The notes beneath the pieces were generated by a model. The model was not told the DNA's origin and ran no database searches. It saw only the letters and a program-made list of their open reading frames with translations. Of a stretch of DNA of 64,000 nt, positions 24,612 through 44,976 are shown in pieces (the first letter of the stretch is position 1; each line of letters starts with the position of its first letter). The stretch is from Desulfovibrio gilichinskyi (lineage in GTDB: Bacteria; Desulfobacterota; Desulfovibrionia; Desulfovibrionales; Desulfovibrionaceae), in NCBI RefSeq assembly GCF_900177375.1, contig NZ_FWZU01000002.1:496001-560000 (forward strand). The letters are read 5' to 3'. The position numbers and the translations under genes were made by a program.

Positions 24612-27083
24612 ATGGCAAAATGTAAATCTGTATTGAAAAAGAAAAATGATCGTGAAAGCCTTAATGCCGATATCTGTGATCACGTGGTATTTTCGCTCAG
24701 TAAGGATATAGAGAATGCTACTGAACGGGATATGGGAAGGGCCCTCGCATTGTCATTGCGTGACCGTCTTGTTGAGAGAATGCTGGAAACTCGTGACCGT
24801 TACCGCGAGACGAAAGCTAAGCGTATGTATTATTTTTCCATTGAGTATCTGCTGGGTCGCTGCCTTGGTAACTCCTTGTGTAATATGGAAATGCTTTCAG
24901 AGTGTGAGGATATGTTTAAAGACCTCGGGTTTGATTTAGATGAAGTCCGTGAAAGCGAGCGTGACCCTGCGCTTGGAAATGGCGGCCTTGGTAGATTGGC
25001 CGCTTGTTTTTTAGATTCTTTAGCCACACTTGATATGCCCGGGTGCGGGTACGGTATCCATTATGAATATGGACTTTTCAGGCAGTCAATTCAGGACGGC
25101 TACCAGAAAGAATTAGCCGATTACTGGATGGCTGACGGTATGCCGCTTGAAATAATCCGTCCTGATCAGGCTGTTCTTATTCCGTTATACGGCAGAGTTG
25201 AAAACAGTATTCTGCCTAATGGTGAATATTTGCCAATGTGGTTGGACTGGGAAGATATTGTAGGTGTTCCGTATGACATTCCAATCGTGGGCTATGGCGG
25301 GAAAACTGTAAATTATCTCAGATTGTTTGCTGCGCGGGCTTCGCAGAATTTTGATATGGAAATTTTTAATAGCGGTGATTACATTCGTGCTGTCCAGCGC
25401 AAGATTGAATCAGAAATGGTTTCAAAGGTTTTATATCCAAGTGAATCAGTTTCTTTCGGTAAAGAATTACGTCTTGTTCAGGAATATTTTCTGGTTGCGT
25501 GCGGCTTAAGGGATATAACCCGTCGGTTCTCAGCTCAAAACAAGAATTTTGAAGAATTTTCAGATTATGTAGCCATTCAGCTAAATGATACTCATCCGGC
25601 TTTGACTGTTGTAGAGTTGATGCGTTTTCTGGTGGATGAGAAACGCATTGAGTGGGGACGGGCGTGGAAGATTACTCAGGCAACCTGTGCATATACAAAC
25701 CATACTTTGTTACCTGAAGCTCTGGAATGCTGGTCGGTAGATCTGCTTGAAAAAGTCCTGCCGCGTCATTTACAGCTTATATATGAAATTAACAGTCGTT
25801 TTTTGGATGGGATTAAGAAAAAATATTCGGAAGATATTGAGAAAATCAGGCGCATGTCGCTCATTGAGGAAGGGGGCAAGAAAGAAGTCCGTATGGCAAA
25901 TCTTGCTGTTATAGGTTCTCATTCCGTTAACGGGGTTTCAGAGCTTCATTCTGAACTCGTAAAGCGCAGGCTTTTCCCTGATTTTTATGAAATGAATCCT
26001 GAGAAATTCAATAATAAAACAAATGGTGTTACCCCGAGACGCTGGCTGCTTAAATCAAACCGCCCGCTCGCTAAGTTGTTAACTGATTGTGCGGGGGACA
26101 AGTGGATTACTGATCTCAGTGAACTTAAGAAAATTGAAAAATACGCAACAGATTCAGAATTCAGGGATAAATTTGTTGCAGCTAAGCGTGAAAATAAAAT
26201 TATCCTTTCAAATTTTATAAGAAGCACTTTGGATATCGATGTTTCACCTGATTCTCTTTTTGATATCCATGCAAAACGTATTCATGAATATAAGCGGCAA
26301 CTACTGAATGTTTTACATATCATCCATATGTATCTGGAAATGGTTGATCATGGGCGGGAACCGCTTTGTGCCCGAACTTTTATTTTTGCAGGAAAGGCCG
26401 CACCCGGATACTGGGAAGCGAAGCAGATAATTAAGCTTATCCATAGTGTCGGCGGTGTCATAAATAAGGACAAAAGGGTCAAGGGGCTGATTAAAGTGGC
26501 CTTTACCCCTGACTATCGAGTTTCCCTTGCAGAAAAAATTATTCCGGCATGTGATCTCAGTGAGCAGATTTCAACAGCAGGGACTGAAGCATCAGGCACA
26601 GGCAATATGAAATTTGCTATAAATGGCGCCTTGACTATCGGGACTCTAGACGGGGCGAACATTGAAATGCGGGAAGAGGTCGGGGAGGATAATTTCTATT
26701 TATTCGGCCTTAGACAGGATGAGGTCGAAAACCTTTTAACGACCCGTTCATATCATCCGCGCGAGATTTATGAAAGTTCTGCTGAAGTAAGAGAAGTCCT
26801 TGACGCATTGTACTCAAACAGATTCTCTCCGAAAGATCCCGGTCTGTTCAACTGGATAGTGGATAAACTGCTTGCTGATAATGAACAGTATCTGCATCTG
26901 GCTGACTTTGCTGAGTACATAGAGGTCCAAAAAACAGTCGGACTGGAATACTCTGATCCTGTTCTTTGGAATAAGAAAGCTATCCTTAACACTGCCCGCA
27001 TGGGTAAATTCTCAACTGATAGAACTATGCGGGAATATGCTGAAGATATCTGGAATATTAAAGCTCTTAAAAATTTAGAATAG
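24612..27083 (+). CDS. glgP: Glycogen/starch/alpha-glucan phosphorylase
   Basis: An 823-residue PLP enzyme (GT35) releasing glucose-1-phosphate from glycogen. Seen: RMYYFSIEYLLGR at the N-terminus, the RDPALGNGGLGRLAACFLDS substrate-loop region, and YGLFRQSIQDGYQ. QLNDTHPAL and TNHTLLPEALECW follow. The C-terminal PLP region has IHEYKRQLLNVLH and EASGTGNMKFAINGALTIGT with the PLP lysine. ATG 24612 has GTAGGAG upstream. It stands alone and is closed by a terminator. MalQ at 38.9 kb would act with it in maltodextrin turnover. Confidence 0.97.
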   Translation: MAKCKSVLKKKNDRESLNADICDHVVFSLSKDIENATERDMGRALALSLRDRLVERMLETRDRYRETKAKRMYYFSIEYLLGRCLGNSLCNMEMLSECEDMFKDLGFDLDEVRESERDPALGNGGLGRLAACFLDSLATLDMPGCGYGIHYEYGLFRQSIQDGYQKELADYWMADGMPLEIIRPDQAVLIPLYGRVENSILPNGEYLPMWLDWEDIVGVPYDIPIVGYGGKTVNYLRLFAARASQNFDMEIFNSGDYIRAVQRKIESEMVSKVLYPSESVSFGKELRLVQEYFLVACGLRDITRRFSAQNKNFEEFSDYVAIQLNDTHPALTVVELMRFLVDEKRIEWGRAWKITQATCAYTNHTLLPEALECWSVDLLEKVLPRHLQLIYEINSRFLDGIKKKYSEDIEKIRRMSLIEEGGKKEVRMANLAVIGSHSVNGVSELHSELVKRRLFPDFYEMNPEKFNNKTNGVTPRRWLLKSNRPLAKLLTDCAGDKWITDLSELKKIEKYATDSEFRDKFVAAKRENKIILSNFIRSTLDIDVSPDSLFDIHAKRIHEYKRQLLNVLHIIHMYLEMVDHGREPLCARTFIFAGKAAPGYWEAKQIIKLIHSVGGVINKDKRVKGLIKVAFTPDYRVSLAEKIIPACDLSEQISTAGTEASGTGNMKFAINGALTIGTLDGANIEMREEVGEDNFYLFGLRQDEVENLLTTRSYHPREIYESSAEVREVLDALYSNRFSPKDPGLFNWIVDKLLADNEQYLHLADFAEYIEVQKTVGLEYSDPVLWNKKAILNTARMGKFSTDRTMREYAEDIWNIKALKNLE

Positions 27084-38943: not shown

Positions 38944-40455
38944 TTAATCTATCCTGCTGGTGCGTCCGAAAAGTTCTGTCATTTCCCCCAGACGTTCCCG
39001 TATCAGTTGTGTAAGCTGCCCCGGGACCAGTTTCCAGCCCCAGTTGCCGTTGGCTTCTCCGGGGATGTTCATGCGTGCTTCTCCGCCCAGATTAAGCAAG
39101 TCCTGAGTCTGGAAAATACACAGGCAGGCTACGCTGGACATTAAAAGCCTGATGAGTTCCCATGAAATTTTGGATTCGTCTATCCAGTCATGTCCAAGAT
39201 ACGACAACATATTTTTGCGGCTTACTTCATCAGCATCCTGATTGAACCATCCTCGGTTTGTGTTATTATCATGAGTACCGGTATATACGACGGAATTTCG
39301 TTTATGATTGTGGAGAGCATCTGCACAGATACCGATATTTTTCCCGAAAGAAAATTGCAGAATGCTCATGCCGGGAAATTGAAAACGGTCCCTGAGATAT
39401 GCAACATCAGGAGTTATATGCCCAAGATCTTCGGCTATAATGCGTAGACATCCGGTACCGCAGGTAGCTATTTCGAAAAGCTTATGCCCGGGAGCTGGAA
39501 CCCAGTATCCTTCAATCGCTGATTCTGCTTCGGCCGGAACTTCCCAGTATGCTGAAAACCCTCTGAAATGATCAAGTCTGGCCCAGTTATATAAGCCTAG
39601 ATTATGGTTAAGCCTGCTGACCCACCAGCCGAAACCTTCTTGCTCGAGAATTTCCCAGTTATAAACCGGATTTCCCCAGAGTTGTCCTGTTTTACTGAAA
39701 TAATCAGGCGGAACACCTGCCACGCAATATGAATTACCGTTTTCATCAAGTTTGAAAATTCTGCGGTTGGCCCAGACATCAGAGCTGTCGTGAGTGACGT
39801 ATATCGGGATATCTCCGATAAGTTCAACTCCGATTTCAGCAAGATGATCGCGAAGCTGCCCCCATTGCCGGAAAAAAATCCACTGGCAGAATTTAACAAA
39901 TAATATTTCCCGCGCCAGCAATTCTCCCCAATAGTGCAGACTTTCTTCTGTTCGATCTCTTATATCTTGCGGCCATTTCGTCCATCTTTCACCGTTTAAA
40001 TGAAGCTTAAGCGACGTAAATAGTGCAAAATCGTTAAGCCAGTGCATGTTATCAAGTAAAAACTGGGTAAACACATGGTCATCGAGTAAATTATTGGCAA
40101 CTCGCGAGAAAGCCATACGGAGAAGTGTTTCTTTTGCAAGGGCAGCCGCATCAAAGTCAGCTTTATCTGAGTCCGGAAGAGCAAAATTATTTATTTCTTC
40201 ATCGTCAAGCAATCCATATTCAACCATAAGTTCGGGGCTTATTAATATGGTGTTGGCGGCAAATGCTGAAAATCCTGAATAAGGTGAATTGCAAAGCTCA
40301 CTCGATGTAGGAGTTATGGGCAGAACCTGCCAGAATCTCTGGCCTGCTTCCGCCAGAAAATCTGCAAATTCATAAGCCGCAGGGCCGATATCTCCGACTC
40401 CGAATCTTGACGGTAATGATGTGAAATGGAGAAGTATTCCGCTGGAACGTTTCAT
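38944..40455 (-). CDS. malQ: 4-alpha-glucanotransferase (amylomaltase)
   Basis: A 503-residue GH77 enzyme that disproportionates maltodextrins. Seen: SSGILLHFTSLPSRFGVGDIG, FWQVLPITPTS, DIPIYVTHDSSDVWAN. The intact catalytic triad is Asp in NWARLDHFRGF, Glu in RIIAEDLGHITPDV, and Asp in VVYTGTHDNNTNRGW. Of two adjacent ATGs I take 40455, 6 bp from AAGGAG. It follows the TreZ-like gene on the same strand with about 100 bp between, so the pair may be one operon. It would act with glycogen phosphorylase. Confidence 0.95.
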   Translation of the reverse strand: MKRSSGILLHFTSLPSRFGVGDIGPAAYEFADFLAEAGQRFWQVLPITPTSSELCNSPYSGFSAFAANTILISPELMVEYGLLDDEEINNFALPDSDKADFDAAALAKETLLRMAFSRVANNLLDDHVFTQFLLDNMHWLNDFALFTSLKLHLNGERWTKWPQDIRDRTEESLHYWGELLAREILFVKFCQWIFFRQWGQLRDHLAEIGVELIGDIPIYVTHDSSDVWANRRIFKLDENGNSYCVAGVPPDYFSKTGQLWGNPVYNWEILEQEGFGWWVSRLNHNLGLYNWARLDHFRGFSAYWEVPAEAESAIEGYWVPAPGHKLFEIATCGTGCLRIIAEDLGHITPDVAYLRDRFQFPGMSILQFSFGKNIGICADALHNHKRNSVVYTGTHDNNTNRGWFNQDADEVSRKNMLSYLGHDWIDESKISWELIRLLMSSVACLCIFQTQDLLNLGGEARMNIPGEANGNWGWKLVPGQLTQLIRERLGEMTELFGRTSRID

Positions 40456-40555
40456 CATGAGCTCCTTATGCTGACCAAAAACGATATAATAATATATCTC
40501 AGAGCATGGTAAGGATGTCCAGCTACTTTGTTTTGAGCAAAGAAATAAAATCAGG

Positions 40556-42406
40556 TCATATATTCAATGGGGTATGAAAATATACTGCAAAAGATTGCGC
40601 GGCTAGTTCCAGCGGTGTGGTGGTTGATAAAATTTTATCTAGAGGAACACCGTATCCTCCGAAGGCTCTCGCGCCGCTGTAAAGTTTAAGTGTCCATGGT
40701 CCGGTCGGTAGATATGACTCAAGTTTTTCAGTGATTGCAACCTTATTGAAATTAAAAATGACAACCGCATACCTTCCATCCGAAGTTGAAGGATTTCGAA
40801 GCATCAGGATAACTCCTGGCTTAATTTCCTGAACCTGACACCTGTTGTGACACGGTTCTTTCAGTGCCGGGTGTTCTTTTCTTAAAAGTAACATTTTTTT
40901 ATAGAACGCAAGCATGGCTCTGCCCTGTTCAGAATCCTTTTTATTCCAGTCCAGTTGACTGGTAGTGAAAGCCGATTCATCGCTGGGATCAAGCTGTTTC
41001 TCTTGGGAAAATTTCAGTTCATGGTAGTGTTTGTCTAAGGTTTCATTTAAACTTGGGGCTGTGGAATAGTCCGAAAAATAATTGAATGGAGCTGTTTCTC
41101 CGTATTCTTCTCCCATGAAAAGTAACGGAGTGTATGGAGAGAGAAGTACGGCTCCGGCGCTCAGTTTAGCAGCTTCAAATCCTGCTTTTTTGATTGTTCT
41201 GCATTCTTCTCCCGTGCAGATAGTTTGCTCATGATTTTGGGAGTAGATGACTAACTTGCTGCCTGAAAACTCTTGAGTATTGCAGCCATGGATTCTTTTC
41301 CGATAATCAGAAAATTCTCCGCGATATGCAAAGCCGTATTGCATGGCCGAGACCATTTTTTCAGGATATCGATAGTCACGGAAAACTCCGTTTATATCCC
41401 CTGTTATTCTGTAGTGCAGGGCGTGGTGGAAATCTTCATCCCATAAAGCATCAAAGCCGTATCCACCCTTGTCATTAGGCTGTATAGAGCGAGTGGAGTT
41501 GTGATGGTCATTAATTATTAAAACACATTTTCTGTTATTTTCTTTTTCAAAAGATCTAATGCGAGTGGAAAGCTCTTCCAGAAAATGGATCGGACTTTGA
41601 TCATAGATTGTTTCAGCATTATTTATGCGCAGTCCGTCGATGTGAAAGTCGCGCAGCCATGACAGAGCACATTGGATATAAAATTCGCGAACACCGAAAC
41701 TGTATTGCTCATCAAAATTAATGGCTTTTCCGTGTGTTGTTGTGTGTATGTCACAAAAGAATGAATCGAAGGCTGAACTTAAGCTTTTTACAATATTATG
41801 CTGGCAGAATTCTACAACTAAAATTACCGCTATACCGCGATCATGGCTTGCCTTAACTAAAGCTTTAAATTCATCCGGTGTCCCGTAACCATTGTGTACT
41901 GCATAAGGAAAAACAGTTTTATTACCCCAGCCGCGGTGACCTGCAAACTGTGCAACTGGCAGAAGTTCCAATGTGTTTATTCCAAGTTCAGACAGATAAT
42001 CCAGCTTGGAAATAAGAGCGCGTAGCGTTCCTTCCTTGGTGAAAGTTCCGACATGGGCTTCGTAAATAATCATTTCGTTTATCGGCAGGCCGGAAAAATT
42101 GTCTCCTTCCCAGTCAAATTTATGATGATCAAAGACAGTTGAGTAGGTATTTATTCCTTCAGGCTGCCATAACGATGCCGGGTCGGGGATTTTTTTTGAA
42201 GCATTAAGCAGAAATGAGTATGATGTGTCCGATGTCAGATTTTTCAATGTTAATTCATGAAAACCATAGTCGGTTTGATTCATCATAAATATATGATCAG
42301 GGTCATTATTAAAATTGATTCCAACGGTTTGGACATGAGGAGCAAATAGTCTAAACATGCAATTACCATTTTCATCAAACCGTGCTCCGAAGTGTTCTTT
42401 TTCCAT
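40556..42406 (-). CDS. TreZ-family GH13 protein lacking catalytic residues
   Basis: A 616-residue protein with the full layout of maltooligosyltrehalose trehalohydrolase: N-terminal CBM48-like domain (MFRLFAPHVQTVGINF, about 15-95), then IYEAHVGTFTKEGT, LELLPVAQFAGHRGWGNKT and YGTPDEFKALVKASHDRG. WDEDFHHALHYRITGD and a C-terminal beta domain complete it. All four GH13 motifs are altered: motif I DVVYNH is VVEFCQ (from Val197), the motif II nucleophile Asp is Asn262 (GLRINNAETI), the motif III acid Glu is Asn299 (LIINDHHN), and the motif IV Asp is Glu393 (QNHEQ). The frame is otherwise intact, so I infer a maintained pseudoenzyme, perhaps a glucan-binding or regulatory partner of the adjacent MalQ. 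No treY is in the window. A new activity is also possible. Confidence 0.8.
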   Translation of the reverse strand: MEKEHFGARFDENGNCMFRLFAPHVQTVGINFNNDPDHIFMMNQTDYGFHELTLKNLTSDTSYSFLLNASKKIPDPASLWQPEGINTYSTVFDHHKFDWEGDNFSGLPINEMIIYEAHVGTFTKEGTLRALISKLDYLSELGINTLELLPVAQFAGHRGWGNKTVFPYAVHNGYGTPDEFKALVKASHDRGIAVILVVEFCQHNIVKSLSSAFDSFFCDIHTTTHGKAINFDEQYSFGVREFYIQCALSWLRDFHIDGLRINNAETIYDQSPIHFLEELSTRIRSFEKENNRKCVLIINDHHNSTRSIQPNDKGGYGFDALWDEDFHHALHYRITGDINGVFRDYRYPEKMVSAMQYGFAYRGEFSDYRKRIHGCNTQEFSGSKLVIYSQNHEQTICTGEECRTIKKAGFEAAKLSAGAVLLSPYTPLLFMGEEYGETAPFNYFSDYSTAPSLNETLDKHYHELKFSQEKQLDPSDESAFTTSQLDWNKKDSEQGRAMLAFYKKMLLLRKEHPALKEPCHNRCQVQEIKPGVILMLRNPSTSDGRYAVVIFNFNKVAITEKLESYLPTGPWTLKLYSGARAFGGYGVPLDKILSTTTPLELAAQSFAVYFHTPLNI

Positions 42407-42534
42407 TCTTGCTCTCTTAAATGCGGTTTTGTTTTAAATTTCAATTTAAGTTATAGTTAAAGCAAGCTTCGTTCGGCCCGTCTTTTGCAAGTGAATGAGT
42501 ACTTACAGCTCGTAACATAATGAGGAGGCAGACC

Positions 42535-42888
42535 ATGAACAGCACTATTAAGTCAGGCGCAGTAGAAGAACATGTACAGATAGCTGAAGTTATGGCCGGT
42601 GAAAAATCAATTTTACATGAGCTTGATTTTCAAGATGTGGCCATCTCAACTGTTGCCGTGGATGCTCTTAAAAGAGCAGCTAAGGCAGTAATGGAAAAAT
42701 TTCTTCCTGGTAGTCAACCCGAAAAACTCACAGAATCTCAGGCAATAGCCTTTTTTATAGACAGAGTATTCTGGGACCAGAATTCTAAGGGATTGATCCT
42801 TTGCGCTGACGTTGCCACACGTAGTTTTTGTATTCCTATTCCAAGTCATCATTGGCATATGAAAACAGACCTTGGAACTATTCAGTAA
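42535..42888 (+). CDS. Small protein of unknown function
   Basis: A 117-residue soluble protein not recognised. ATG 42535 has a strong AGGAGG at 42523-42528. It reads MNSTIKSGAVEEHVQIAEVM, VAVDALKRAAKAVMEKFLPG, AIAFFIDRVFWDQNSKG and LCADVATRSFCIPIPSHHWH. The Cys/His pairs near the end (LCAD, FCIP, HHWH) could bind a metal, but that is a guess. It is a monocistronic gene closed by a good terminator. Confidence 0.65.
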   Translation: MNSTIKSGAVEEHVQIAEVMAGEKSILHELDFQDVAISTVAVDALKRAAKAVMEKFLPGSQPEKLTESQAIAFFIDRVFWDQNSKGLILCADVATRSFCIPIPSHHWHMKTDLGTIQ

Positions 42889-43101: not shown

Positions 43102-44976
43102 ATGGTTAATGAGATCTGTTCCGATCTGTTTAAATTGAGGTCACCTTTCGAAGATAGATTCAGGGGGGCTCTTTTTTCAATATTAGAAAAACCATTATCA
43201 GGGCTGCTATGTCTTCCTAAGTTGAATTCAATGTATAAAAAAGTTTCTGATGAGCAATACTGGAAAGATGAGCCGGACTTTATAGGCAAGGCTCTAGATT
43301 TGCTGGGTGTTTCGTCCGAAATTTCTGAGAATGAATTAAAAAAAATTCCAAGTTCCGGTGCTGCTGTTGTTGTATCAAATCATCCTTTCGGTGTTGTTGA
43401 GGGATTAGTCTTGCTTAGAGCGCTTAAAACTGTGCGGCCTGATGTTAAAATTATGGCAAATTTCATGCTCGGACTTATTCCGGAGATGCACGAACATCTG
43501 ATTTCAGTTGATCCTTTCGGTCGTAAAAAATCACATAGTGATAATATTTCCGGTTTGAAGGAAGCCGTTAAGTGGGTAAAATCCGGCGGGATGCTGGTTG
43601 TTTTTCCGGCTGGTGAAGTTTCAAACTTAAAACTTAAGGACGGAAAAGTTGAAGATTCTGCATGGAGCCCGACAATCGGCGGAATAATCAAACGTACCGG
43701 AGCCAGCGTAGTTCCTGTTTTTTTTAATGGTCGCAACAGTTTTTTATTTCAGCTGATGGGAATTATTCATCCCCACTTGCGTACCATGTTGATCCCCCGG
43801 GAAAATCTTAATAAACAATCTGATCCTGTAAAGTTTGCAGTCGGAAGTACTGTGTCAGGTGACCGTTTATCCTTGTTTGAGACAAATCAAGAGCTGATTG
43901 AGTATTTAAGATTTCGAACATACGCACTCAAATCACGCTTTAAAATTAAGAAAAAATCAAATCTTCCGGTATTTAAAAAGAAGCTTAAACCTTTGTGTGA
44001 TGAAGTTTCACAGGATAGGATTATTGCGGAAGTAGGTTCGCTTTCAGCGGAAAATAAACTTGCTGAGAATAATGAGTTTACAGTCTATGAAGTTCATTCT
44101 GCAAAATGTCCTTTTATATTGCGTGAGCTTGGAAGGTTGCGCGAGAAGACATTCCGCACAGTCGGCGAAGGGACCGGAAAGCCGGTTGATGTCGACAGGT
44201 TTGATAATACGTTCATTCATCTGGTGCTTTGGAATTATAAAAATAACGAGATTGCAGGTGCATACCGTATCGCCCGCACAGATGAGCAGATTGAGCATTA
44301 TGGAATGAAGGGGGTTTACAGCGATTCCTTTTTCAGATTTACGGACGGCTTTTTTAAAAGTGTAACACCTGCGCTTGAGCTCGGACGTTCGTTCATCCGG
44401 CCTGAATATCAGAAAAACTATGCGTCTCTTTTGATGCTCTGGAAAGGAATTGCCGGATATTTATCCAAGAATCCTAAGTATCGCTACTTATTCGGATGTG
44501 TCAGTATCTCGAATGATTATAAAAAAATATCACGTGAATATATGGCCGATTCACTGCTGCGTCATCATGGTAGATCTGATCTTGCCACAATGATCTCTCC
44601 GACTAAGCCTTTAAAGTTTAAAAAACTTAAATATTGGCAGAAATGTCTGCCGCAGTCGGCTTTTTCCGAACCGGATGATCTTGAAAAAGTTGTGCAGGAC
44701 ATTGAAGGCGGGCAGGGTATTCCTGTGCTGATTCGCCATTATTTAAAAATAGGCGGCAGGCTTGTAGGGTTCAACGTTGATCCTGATTTCGGTAATTCGC
44801 TTGACGGGCTTATTGTTGTTGATCTGCTTGAAACTTCCGAGAGAAGTCTTGCTAAGTTTATGGGTAAGGAAGAATCCAGTTGTTATCTGGATTACCACAA
44901 AGCTTTAGAAGCAGAGCAGAGTAAGATTAATGATGAAAGATTGATTACTGGGGATATTGATAGAATCGCAGTATGA
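43102..44976 (+). CDS. OlsF-like bifunctional acyltransferase (PlsC-type plus GNAT-like)
   Basis: A 624-residue fusion. The N-terminal half (about 70-260) is a PlsC/haemolysin-type acyltransferase with VVVSNHPFGVVEG (catalytic His), MANFMLG, SVDPFGRKKSHSDNISGL and VFPAGEVS. The C-terminal half (about 330-590) is an OlsB-like N-acyltransferase with LGRLREKTFRTVGEGTG, DNTFIHLVLWNYKNNEIAGA, LELGRSFIRPEYQ and FGCVSISNDY. The same two-domain arrangement makes ornithine lipid in OlsF proteins: one domain forms lyso-ornithine lipid, the other acylates it. AGGGAG precedes ATG 43102. I infer amino-acid-containing membrane lipid synthesis; the acyl acceptor is not proven. Monocistronic. Confidence 0.8.
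   Translation: MVNEICSDLFKLRSPFEDRFRGALFSILEKPLSGLLCLPKLNSMYKKVSDEQYWKDEPDFIGKALDLLGVSSEISENELKKIPSSGAAVVVSNHPFGVVEGLVLLRALKTVRPDVKIMANFMLGLIPEMHEHLISVDPFGRKKSHSDNISGLKEAVKWVKSGGMLVVFPAGEVSNLKLKDGKVEDSAWSPTIGGIIKRTGASVVPVFFNGRNSFLFQLMGIIHPHLRTMLIPRENLNKQSDPVKFAVGSTVSGDRLSLFETNQELIEYLRFRTYALKSRFKIKKKSNLPVFKKKLKPLCDEVSQDRIIAEVGSLSAENKLAENNEFTVYEVHSAKCPFILRELGRLREKTFRTVGEGTGKPVDVDRFDNTFIHLVLWNYKNNEIAGAYRIARTDEQIEHYGMKGVYSDSFFRFTDGFFKSVTPALELGRSFIRPEYQKNYASLLMLWKGIAGYLSKNPKYRYLFGCVSISNDYKKISREYMADSLLRHHGRSDLATMISPTKPLKFKKLKYWQKCLPQSAFSEPDDLEKVVQDIEGGQGIPVLIRHYLKIGGRLVGFNVDPDFGNSLDGLIVVDLLETSERSLAKFMGKEESSCYLDYHKALEAEQSKINDERLITGDIDRIAV

Follow-up and report, generated by a model that had tools for sequence, protein, structure and literature searches.

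The stretch of DNA analysed here (hereafter, the window) comprises 64,000 nucleotides of the genome of Desulfovibrio gilichinskyi. On its minus strand, at 40556..42406, lies a gene encoding a protein of 616 amino acids in one unbroken open reading frame, with a predicted TreZ-like (GH13_10) fold and without the catalytic triad, which is referred to as pseudo-TreZ (psTreZ). Its best curated family match is TreZ (TIGR02402, NCBIfam), with 511.2 bits, a score below the curated cut-off of 538.8; the full-length, unbroken TreZ-type gene reported in a preliminary description of this locus, made from the sequence alone, is confirmed. When solved structures were searched with phmmer, TreZ was also the closest to the window protein (3vgg, E 3.5e-101, residues 11-523), the Sulfolobus TreZ structures being its closest solved relatives by sequence. 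Identity to TreZ rows taken from the model alignment or found nearby is 34-39%.

An AF2 model of psTreZ, built from an alignment of the window protein with 40 TreZ relatives, has a mean pLDDT of 83 and a pTM of 0.89, and its stretches with pLDDT <50 include the old catalytic loops (residues 151-156, 159-165, 204-208 and 395-399). The top Foldseek match of this model is 3m07, a putative alpha-amylase from Salmonella, and eight of its nine best matches are TreZ, with TM values of 0.89-0.92 by target length. Thus, the TreZ architecture previously ascribed to the protein is also that of the model, and psTreZ is predicted to retain the TreZ fold, consisting of N-domain, barrel and C-domain.

Downstream of psTreZ, after a gap of 97 bases, is located malQ (38944..40458, minus strand), encoding a 4-alpha-glucanotransferase (GH77). 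Its product shows a strong GH77 match and retains RLDHF, IAEDLG and GTHDNN, which we take to be the GH77 catalytic motifs, in agreement with the earlier statement that the adjacent MalQ keeps its D-E-D triad. The gap between both genes contains a conserved promoter-like block (TGGACAT, then TGC[TC]CTG) at 40500..40521, minus strand, whose strict pattern is found in 12 of the 17 genomes of the genus considered below, four more being alike by eye and G002 being the exception. The conservation of this block before malQ suggests that malQ may be transcribed separately from psTreZ, using its own promoter. A promoter scan of the region returned 7 sites, with 8.6 expected.

A divergent gene encoding a protein of 122 amino acids without a Pfam match (42520..42888, plus strand) is a conserved neighbour of the locus, and its divergent position next to malQ is conserved even in the absence of TreZ (L178, G062). 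At 43102-44976 of the window, on the plus strand, a single protein combines a GNAT-type acetyltransferase domain with acyltransferase domains. One further alpha-glucan gene was noticed in the window and, named by eye, encodes the glycogen phosphorylase GlgP (24612..27083, plus strand). This enzyme had been put forward, together with MalQ, as a possible partner of psTreZ; it is indeed present in the window, but it is not adjacent, being located about 13 kb from psTreZ.

The genome to which the window belongs contains glgA-glgB, and its only GH13 proteins are GlgB and psTreZ; the same two GH13 types are found in the other genomes of the genus, with one more in G004. The replacement of a debranching enzyme by psTreZ was considered, since this genome has no GDE match, but it was rejected, as a debrancher may still be present, the genome having three matches to the GH57 model.

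Catalytic and ligand residues in the genus

The positions of the triad were located by alignment to 3vge/3vgg (D252S and E283Q mutants). Codon 262 (41621..41623, minus strand), which aligns with D252, the nucleophile Asp of TreZ, encodes Asn; codon 299 (41510..41512, minus strand), which aligns with E283, the general acid/base Glu, also encodes Asn; and codon 393 (41228..41230, minus strand), corresponding to the Asp that stabilises the transition state, encodes Glu, so that QNHDQ becomes QNHEQ. In the alignment with TreZ, GH13 motif I, which reads DVVYNH in this enzyme, is here VVEFCQ (residues 197-202; 41801..41818, minus strand). All these substitutions had been recognised in the preliminary description, and the alignments corroborate them. 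Furthermore, residues 301-302 (41501..41506, minus strand), adjoining the old acid/base, are H-H in the window protein and mostly D then L in TreZ; K301 is found in 14/17 copies of the pseudo-TreZ clade and R/H302 in 16/17, a basic pair thus replacing D-L.

The genus sample consists of the window genome and 16 others returned by the search, all of which carry a psTreZ ortholog. These orthologs are 39-88% identical to the window protein, and the 17 copies match TIGR02402 at E <= 0.001. Their triads are NNE, NDD, TDT and NGD (two copies each), KGE (four), KGD (two), and SGD, KSE and AER (one each). The nucleophile Asp is retained in none of the 17 copies, the acid Glu in one and the third Asp in seven, and no copy retains two of the three residues. 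The nucleophile position is occupied by N, K, T, S or A (K262 appears in 7/17 genomes), and the acid position by N, D, G, S or E. Conservation of the exact N262/N299/E393 set, which had been contemplated earlier, does not hold, as it is common to G000 and G009 only. The loss of the triad in 17/17 genomes rules out both an error in the sequence and a defect limited to one strain.

The control set comprised 106 other TreZ rows, of which 104 are distinct at 97% identity; 80 were the top matches in a genome scan, and 26 came from family and order genomes. D262 and E299 are each present in 106/106 of these rows and D393 in 105/106, the lone miss being an alignment gap in L058, whose matched stretch contains a stop codon. 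Additional TreZ rows beyond the control, from 17 family places and 2 order-level places, conserve D/E/D in all 19 cases. When the genus profile was searched against 247 family genomes, drawn from a larger group, 39 of them passed E <= 1e-60, with scores of >= 855 bits in the 17 genus genomes and of <= 502 bits in 30 other places. As D/E/D is intact in the 30 non-genus places, the dead TreZ clade is, judging from these sequences, confined to the genus within the sample. Viral contigs, scanned with the window psTreZ in a search that detects close relatives only, gave no match and no sign of viral spread.

The residues involved in ligand binding and selectivity have been assigned roles in Sulfolobus TreZ (PMC3716775). 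Carried over by hand through the 3vge/3vgg alignment, the residues published for S. solfataricus P2 are kept in psTreZ to very different extents: Y155 in 11/17 copies, D156 in 6/17, R356 in 5/17, W218 in 4/17, H195 in 1/17 and Y328 in 0/17. The positions of D328 and D329 of Deinococcus TreZ are each kept in 14/17. Cysteines at residues 246, 294 and 519 are conserved in 16/17 psTreZ and in <10% of TreZ.

The motif segments are also less acidic in psTreZ than in TreZ (net charge -6.5 vs -9.9), with more Lys/Arg (4.8 vs 2.0). Together with the basic pair that replaces D-L, this would be compatible with a ligand sensor, in which the old pocket would bind another small ligand, perhaps an anionic one (glucose 1-phosphate), controlling MalQ or glycogen turnover. 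The whole protein (residues 12-540) is, it must be said, also less acidic (-12.9 vs -20.5 in TreZ). Taking into account that no single pocket pattern is found across the genus, and the evolutionary rates given below, such a sensor is considered quite unlikely.

Selection and evolutionary rates

The psTreZ gene is under purifying selection. Its pairwise omega is 0.077, 0.179 and 0.102 in three close species pairs (YN00), and 0.123 and 0.091 in two further pairs (NG86), and maximum likelihood gives 0.105 and 0.100 in two subclades of 6 and 7 genomes. The corresponding maximum-likelihood values are 0.050 and 0.036 for malQ (two subclades), 0.087 and 0.133 for a neighbouring GT2 glycosyltransferase, and 0.095 and 0.044 for an aldolase-like neighbour, these two neighbours having been named by eye. 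Judged by tree length (4.65 vs 1.31, on 10 genomes), psTreZ evolves at about 3.5 times the rate of malQ.

Of the 91 columns conserved in >=95% of TreZ, 48 persist in >=90% of psTreZ, and 28 are missing from most copies. Within the motif segments, 9/35 of these columns are kept and 19 lost, and outside them 39/56 are kept and 9 lost (Fisher p 1.8e-4, for the lost columns). Two segments evolve more slowly in psTreZ than in TreZ: residues 93-109 (DHHKFDWEGDNFSGLPI; 42080..42130, minus strand), with a rate of 0.72 vs 1.28, and residues 510-542, which span the end of helix 493-511 and the strands after it (40781..40879, minus strand), with 0.70 vs 1.58. Both segments emerged from a scan, and the permutation threshold that they exceed takes no account of autocorrelation.

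TreY is the enzyme making the substrate of TreZ, and it could be thought that, once TreY was lost, TreZ became useless and psTreZ is a decaying gene on its way out. The lack of TreY above the cut-off in the genus, the fast evolution of psTreZ and the copy of G008 (L040, just upstream of 10299, minus strand) would speak in its favour; an in-frame TGA interrupts this copy about 19 codons from the usual start, at a position where the aligned codon of its relatives is a sense one, with a possible GTG start downstream of it. However, an omega of about 0.1, the absence of in-frame stops within the matched region of the remaining 16/17 copies despite their 39-88% identity, the columns kept (above all those outside the motifs) and the two segments more constrained than in TreZ make decay extremely improbable. 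A recent pseudogene is likewise disfavoured by an omega of about 0.1. Intact close homologues combined with relaxed dN/dS, which would point to such a pseudogene, are not found among the 17 genus genomes. With the loss fixed in 17/17 genomes and an omega of 0.08-0.18 in pairs and about 0.10 by maximum likelihood, the maintained pseudoenzyme proposed in the preliminary description stands, and psTreZ is, with high confidence, a genus-wide and selectively maintained pseudoenzyme.

Six GH13 motif segments (67 residues) were compared with the rest of residues 12-455. In 27 diverse TreZ the motif segments evolve at a rate of 0.29 vs 0.90 for the rest (p 1.6e-13), and in 17 cyanobacterial TreZ, a set matched in divergence to psTreZ (mean identity 59% vs 57%; tree length 6.0 vs 6.5), at 0.33 vs 0.92 elsewhere. 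In psTreZ, in contrast, the two rates are 0.90 and 0.93 (p 0.93). Thus, the GH13 motifs, which are the slowest part of TreZ, are without special constraint in psTreZ. Loops I, V and IV evolve above the protein average (1.21, 1.14 and 1.20), and two of them, I and IV, belong to the segments with lost constraint, which argues against the ligand sensor mentioned above. The loss of special constraint on the motifs, together with that of most published TreZ ligand residues, also speaks against a sensor built on the old active-site groove; a sensor was one of the functions initially suggested.

These rates also bear on a second possibility, namely that psTreZ is an enzyme with new chemistry, still acting on a sugar by means of a rebuilt pocket (in the larger subclade, for example, K262/D263 and D300/K301/R302). 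Motifs II and III have less freedom to vary than I and IV (rates of 0.68 vs 1.2), K262, K301 and R/H302 recur in 7/17, 14/17 and 16/17 copies, respectively, acids common to TreZ and psTreZ remain (e.g., D232 and D257), and a GH13 enzyme with an aberrant third residue, BmaN1, can be active (PMC5347038). Nevertheless, the residues at the nucleophile and acid positions are variable, the motif rates equal those of the rest of residues 12-455, the only acids among the 26 conserved positions specific to psTreZ, D98 and E517, both lie outside the GH13 motifs, and BmaN1 itself retains nucleophile and acid. New chemistry is therefore regarded as very unlikely, even more so than the sensor.

Linkage to malQ and origin

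In all 17 genus genomes, psTreZ is located directly upstream of malQ, with a spacing of 97-157 bases, so that the linkage to malQ that was to be looked for among homologues does exist. This linkage is weak evidence of interaction, because the synteny around the locus is generally conserved across the genus anyway. It might thus be argued that psTreZ has a non-catalytic function unrelated to MalQ (e.g., as a structural or stress protein) and that its position beside malQ is inherited synteny, taking into account that the neighbours are also largely syntenic and that malQ may have its own promoter. Rate covariation, analysed with 10 genomes, 17 branches and 12 genes, would also be in line with this; GlgA and malQ are the best partners of psTreZ, but the covariation is weak, with GlgA, malQ and GlgB ranking 7/66, 15/66 and 30/66 among the gene pairs. 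In this analysis, four of the 16 genes built (acylT, MTase, KdsB and CarA) were excluded for being present in too few genomes. On the other side, psTreZ has TreZ ancestry, the pairing with malQ is also seen outside the genus (G063 and G029, see below), and the psTreZ-malQ pair survives intact in G014 and G015, in which synteny breaks past malQ. A function unconnected with MalQ is rated as unlikely, although it is the strongest of the alternatives considered.

Of 24 genomes tested, five have TreY above the cut-off; it was not found above it in G063, in G029 or in any of the 17 genus genomes. G063, a genome from another genus of the same family, contains at L160 the gene order 122-aa divergent gene, intact TreZ, malQ, and the motifs of this TreZ are intact (RLDAVQ, IAESS, QSHDE). 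In G029 (L165), an intact TreZ is also found directly upstream of malQ. The malQ neighbourhoods were surveyed in 30 places of 31 matches, from 27 of 30 family genomes, and among these 30 places only G063 and G029 have TreZ directly upstream of malQ. Both orphan TreZ resemble psTreZ in their order with malQ and in the lack of TreY, and G063 also has the 122-aa gene; unlike psTreZ, their triads are intact.

In a mixture-model tree of 35 rows, G063 joins the psTreZ clade with support of 96/94, this tree carrying warnings for long rows and odd letter make-up that include G063 and several psTreZ rows. In a quick tree with 66 rows, G029 and G063 both fell with psTreZ, and the mixture-model tree keeps G063 only; G029 was dropped as a psTreZ sister due to this unstable position. 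The genus of G063 is represented by one genome, which explains why no intermediate between TreZ and psTreZ was found in it.

Given that G063 shares the gene order with an intact TreZ and lacks TreY, an orphan TreZ seemingly became a pseudoenzyme in place. On these comparisons of sequence and gene order, psTreZ seems to have arisen from an intact orphan TreZ located upstream of malQ, and the order of events would seem to be the loss of the TreY partner first and the loss of TreZ catalysis later, at the same site.

Proposed role and related systems

Taking all this into account, the following scheme can be proposed. In a lineage without TreY, a TreZ would have been located upstream of malQ. This orphan TreZ would have lost its triad and most of the ligand residues tested, while fold, locus and purifying selection would have persisted. 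psTreZ would then have a non-catalytic role, structural or regulatory, in the metabolism of alpha-glucans (glycogen/maltodextrin), as a partner that most probably binds MalQ and/or tethers MalQ to glucan, with residues 93-109 and 510-542 as part of the putative contact surfaces. A non-catalytic partner role in glycogen/maltodextrin metabolism, with MalQ as first candidate, is inferred tentatively, as a reasonable possibility that falls somewhat short of being probable. The overall explanation, which joins a maintained pseudoenzyme, its origin in place and a partner role in alpha-glucan metabolism, stops just short of what we would call probable.

A bolder version might be imagined, in which catalysis was lost once, at the base of the genus, and the dead TreZ subunit came to serve MalQ as its allosteric or tethering partner, its former active site being freed; in one subclade this site would now be a basic pocket that binds a phosphorylated sugar reporting glycogen flux, and G063 would represent the still-catalytic state. 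This version is speculative and rather unlikely, a little more so than a function unrelated to MalQ.

Among known systems, TreZ itself (GH13_10; 3vgb, 2bhu) shares with psTreZ the whole fold, the best family match and the structure matches. psTreZ differs from it in having no triad, in the loss of most of the tested +2 to -3 ligand residues, in its sub-cut-off TIGR02402 score and in the absence of TreY.

In its way of working, the closest system would be, as a best guess by analogy, plant ISA2 (GH13_11), a non-catalytic isoamylase acting in complex with ISA1 (PMC12510319). In ISA2, which also has a GH13 origin, the nucleophile and further catalytic residues were lost lineage-wide, and the protein evolves fast and is retained (PMC12510319); clade-wide catalytic loss with purifying selection is likewise found in psTreZ. 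ISA2 differs in belonging to another GH13 subfamily and to plants and in having an extra N-terminal domain (PMC12510319). Moreover, the partner of ISA2 is an active paralog (PMC12510319), whereas no active TreZ, that is, no active paralog of the same subfamily, was found among the genus genomes examined. The earlier assertion that no system of this kind had been described was thus too strong, ISA2 being a conserved non-catalytic GH13 protein (PMC12510319).

BmaN1, whose group is called GH13_45 in another source (PMC11448133), is like psTreZ in belonging to a GH13 group with a conserved departure from the D/E/D triad. It is an active alpha-amylase with an aberrant third residue and with nucleophile and acid intact (PMC5347038), unlike psTreZ, in which the nucleophile is kept in 0/17 copies. 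Among the literature matches listed, whose scope leaves subscription journals mostly outside, no TreZ pseudoenzyme is described.

psTreZ could easily be annotated as a trehalohydrolase, because its score falls so little short of the curated cut-off, and the genus would then be credited with a trehalose route that is apparently absent from it, since there is no TreY. If the proposed explanation is true, psTreZ would constitute a bacterial family of TreZ-type pseudoenzymes. As another genus (G063) has a related gene, still intact, at this locus, the step from enzyme to non-enzyme would be open to direct study. It would also allow the study of the pairing of TreZ and MalQ without TreY, and of the use that a dead glycoside hydrolase may have in glycogen metabolism.
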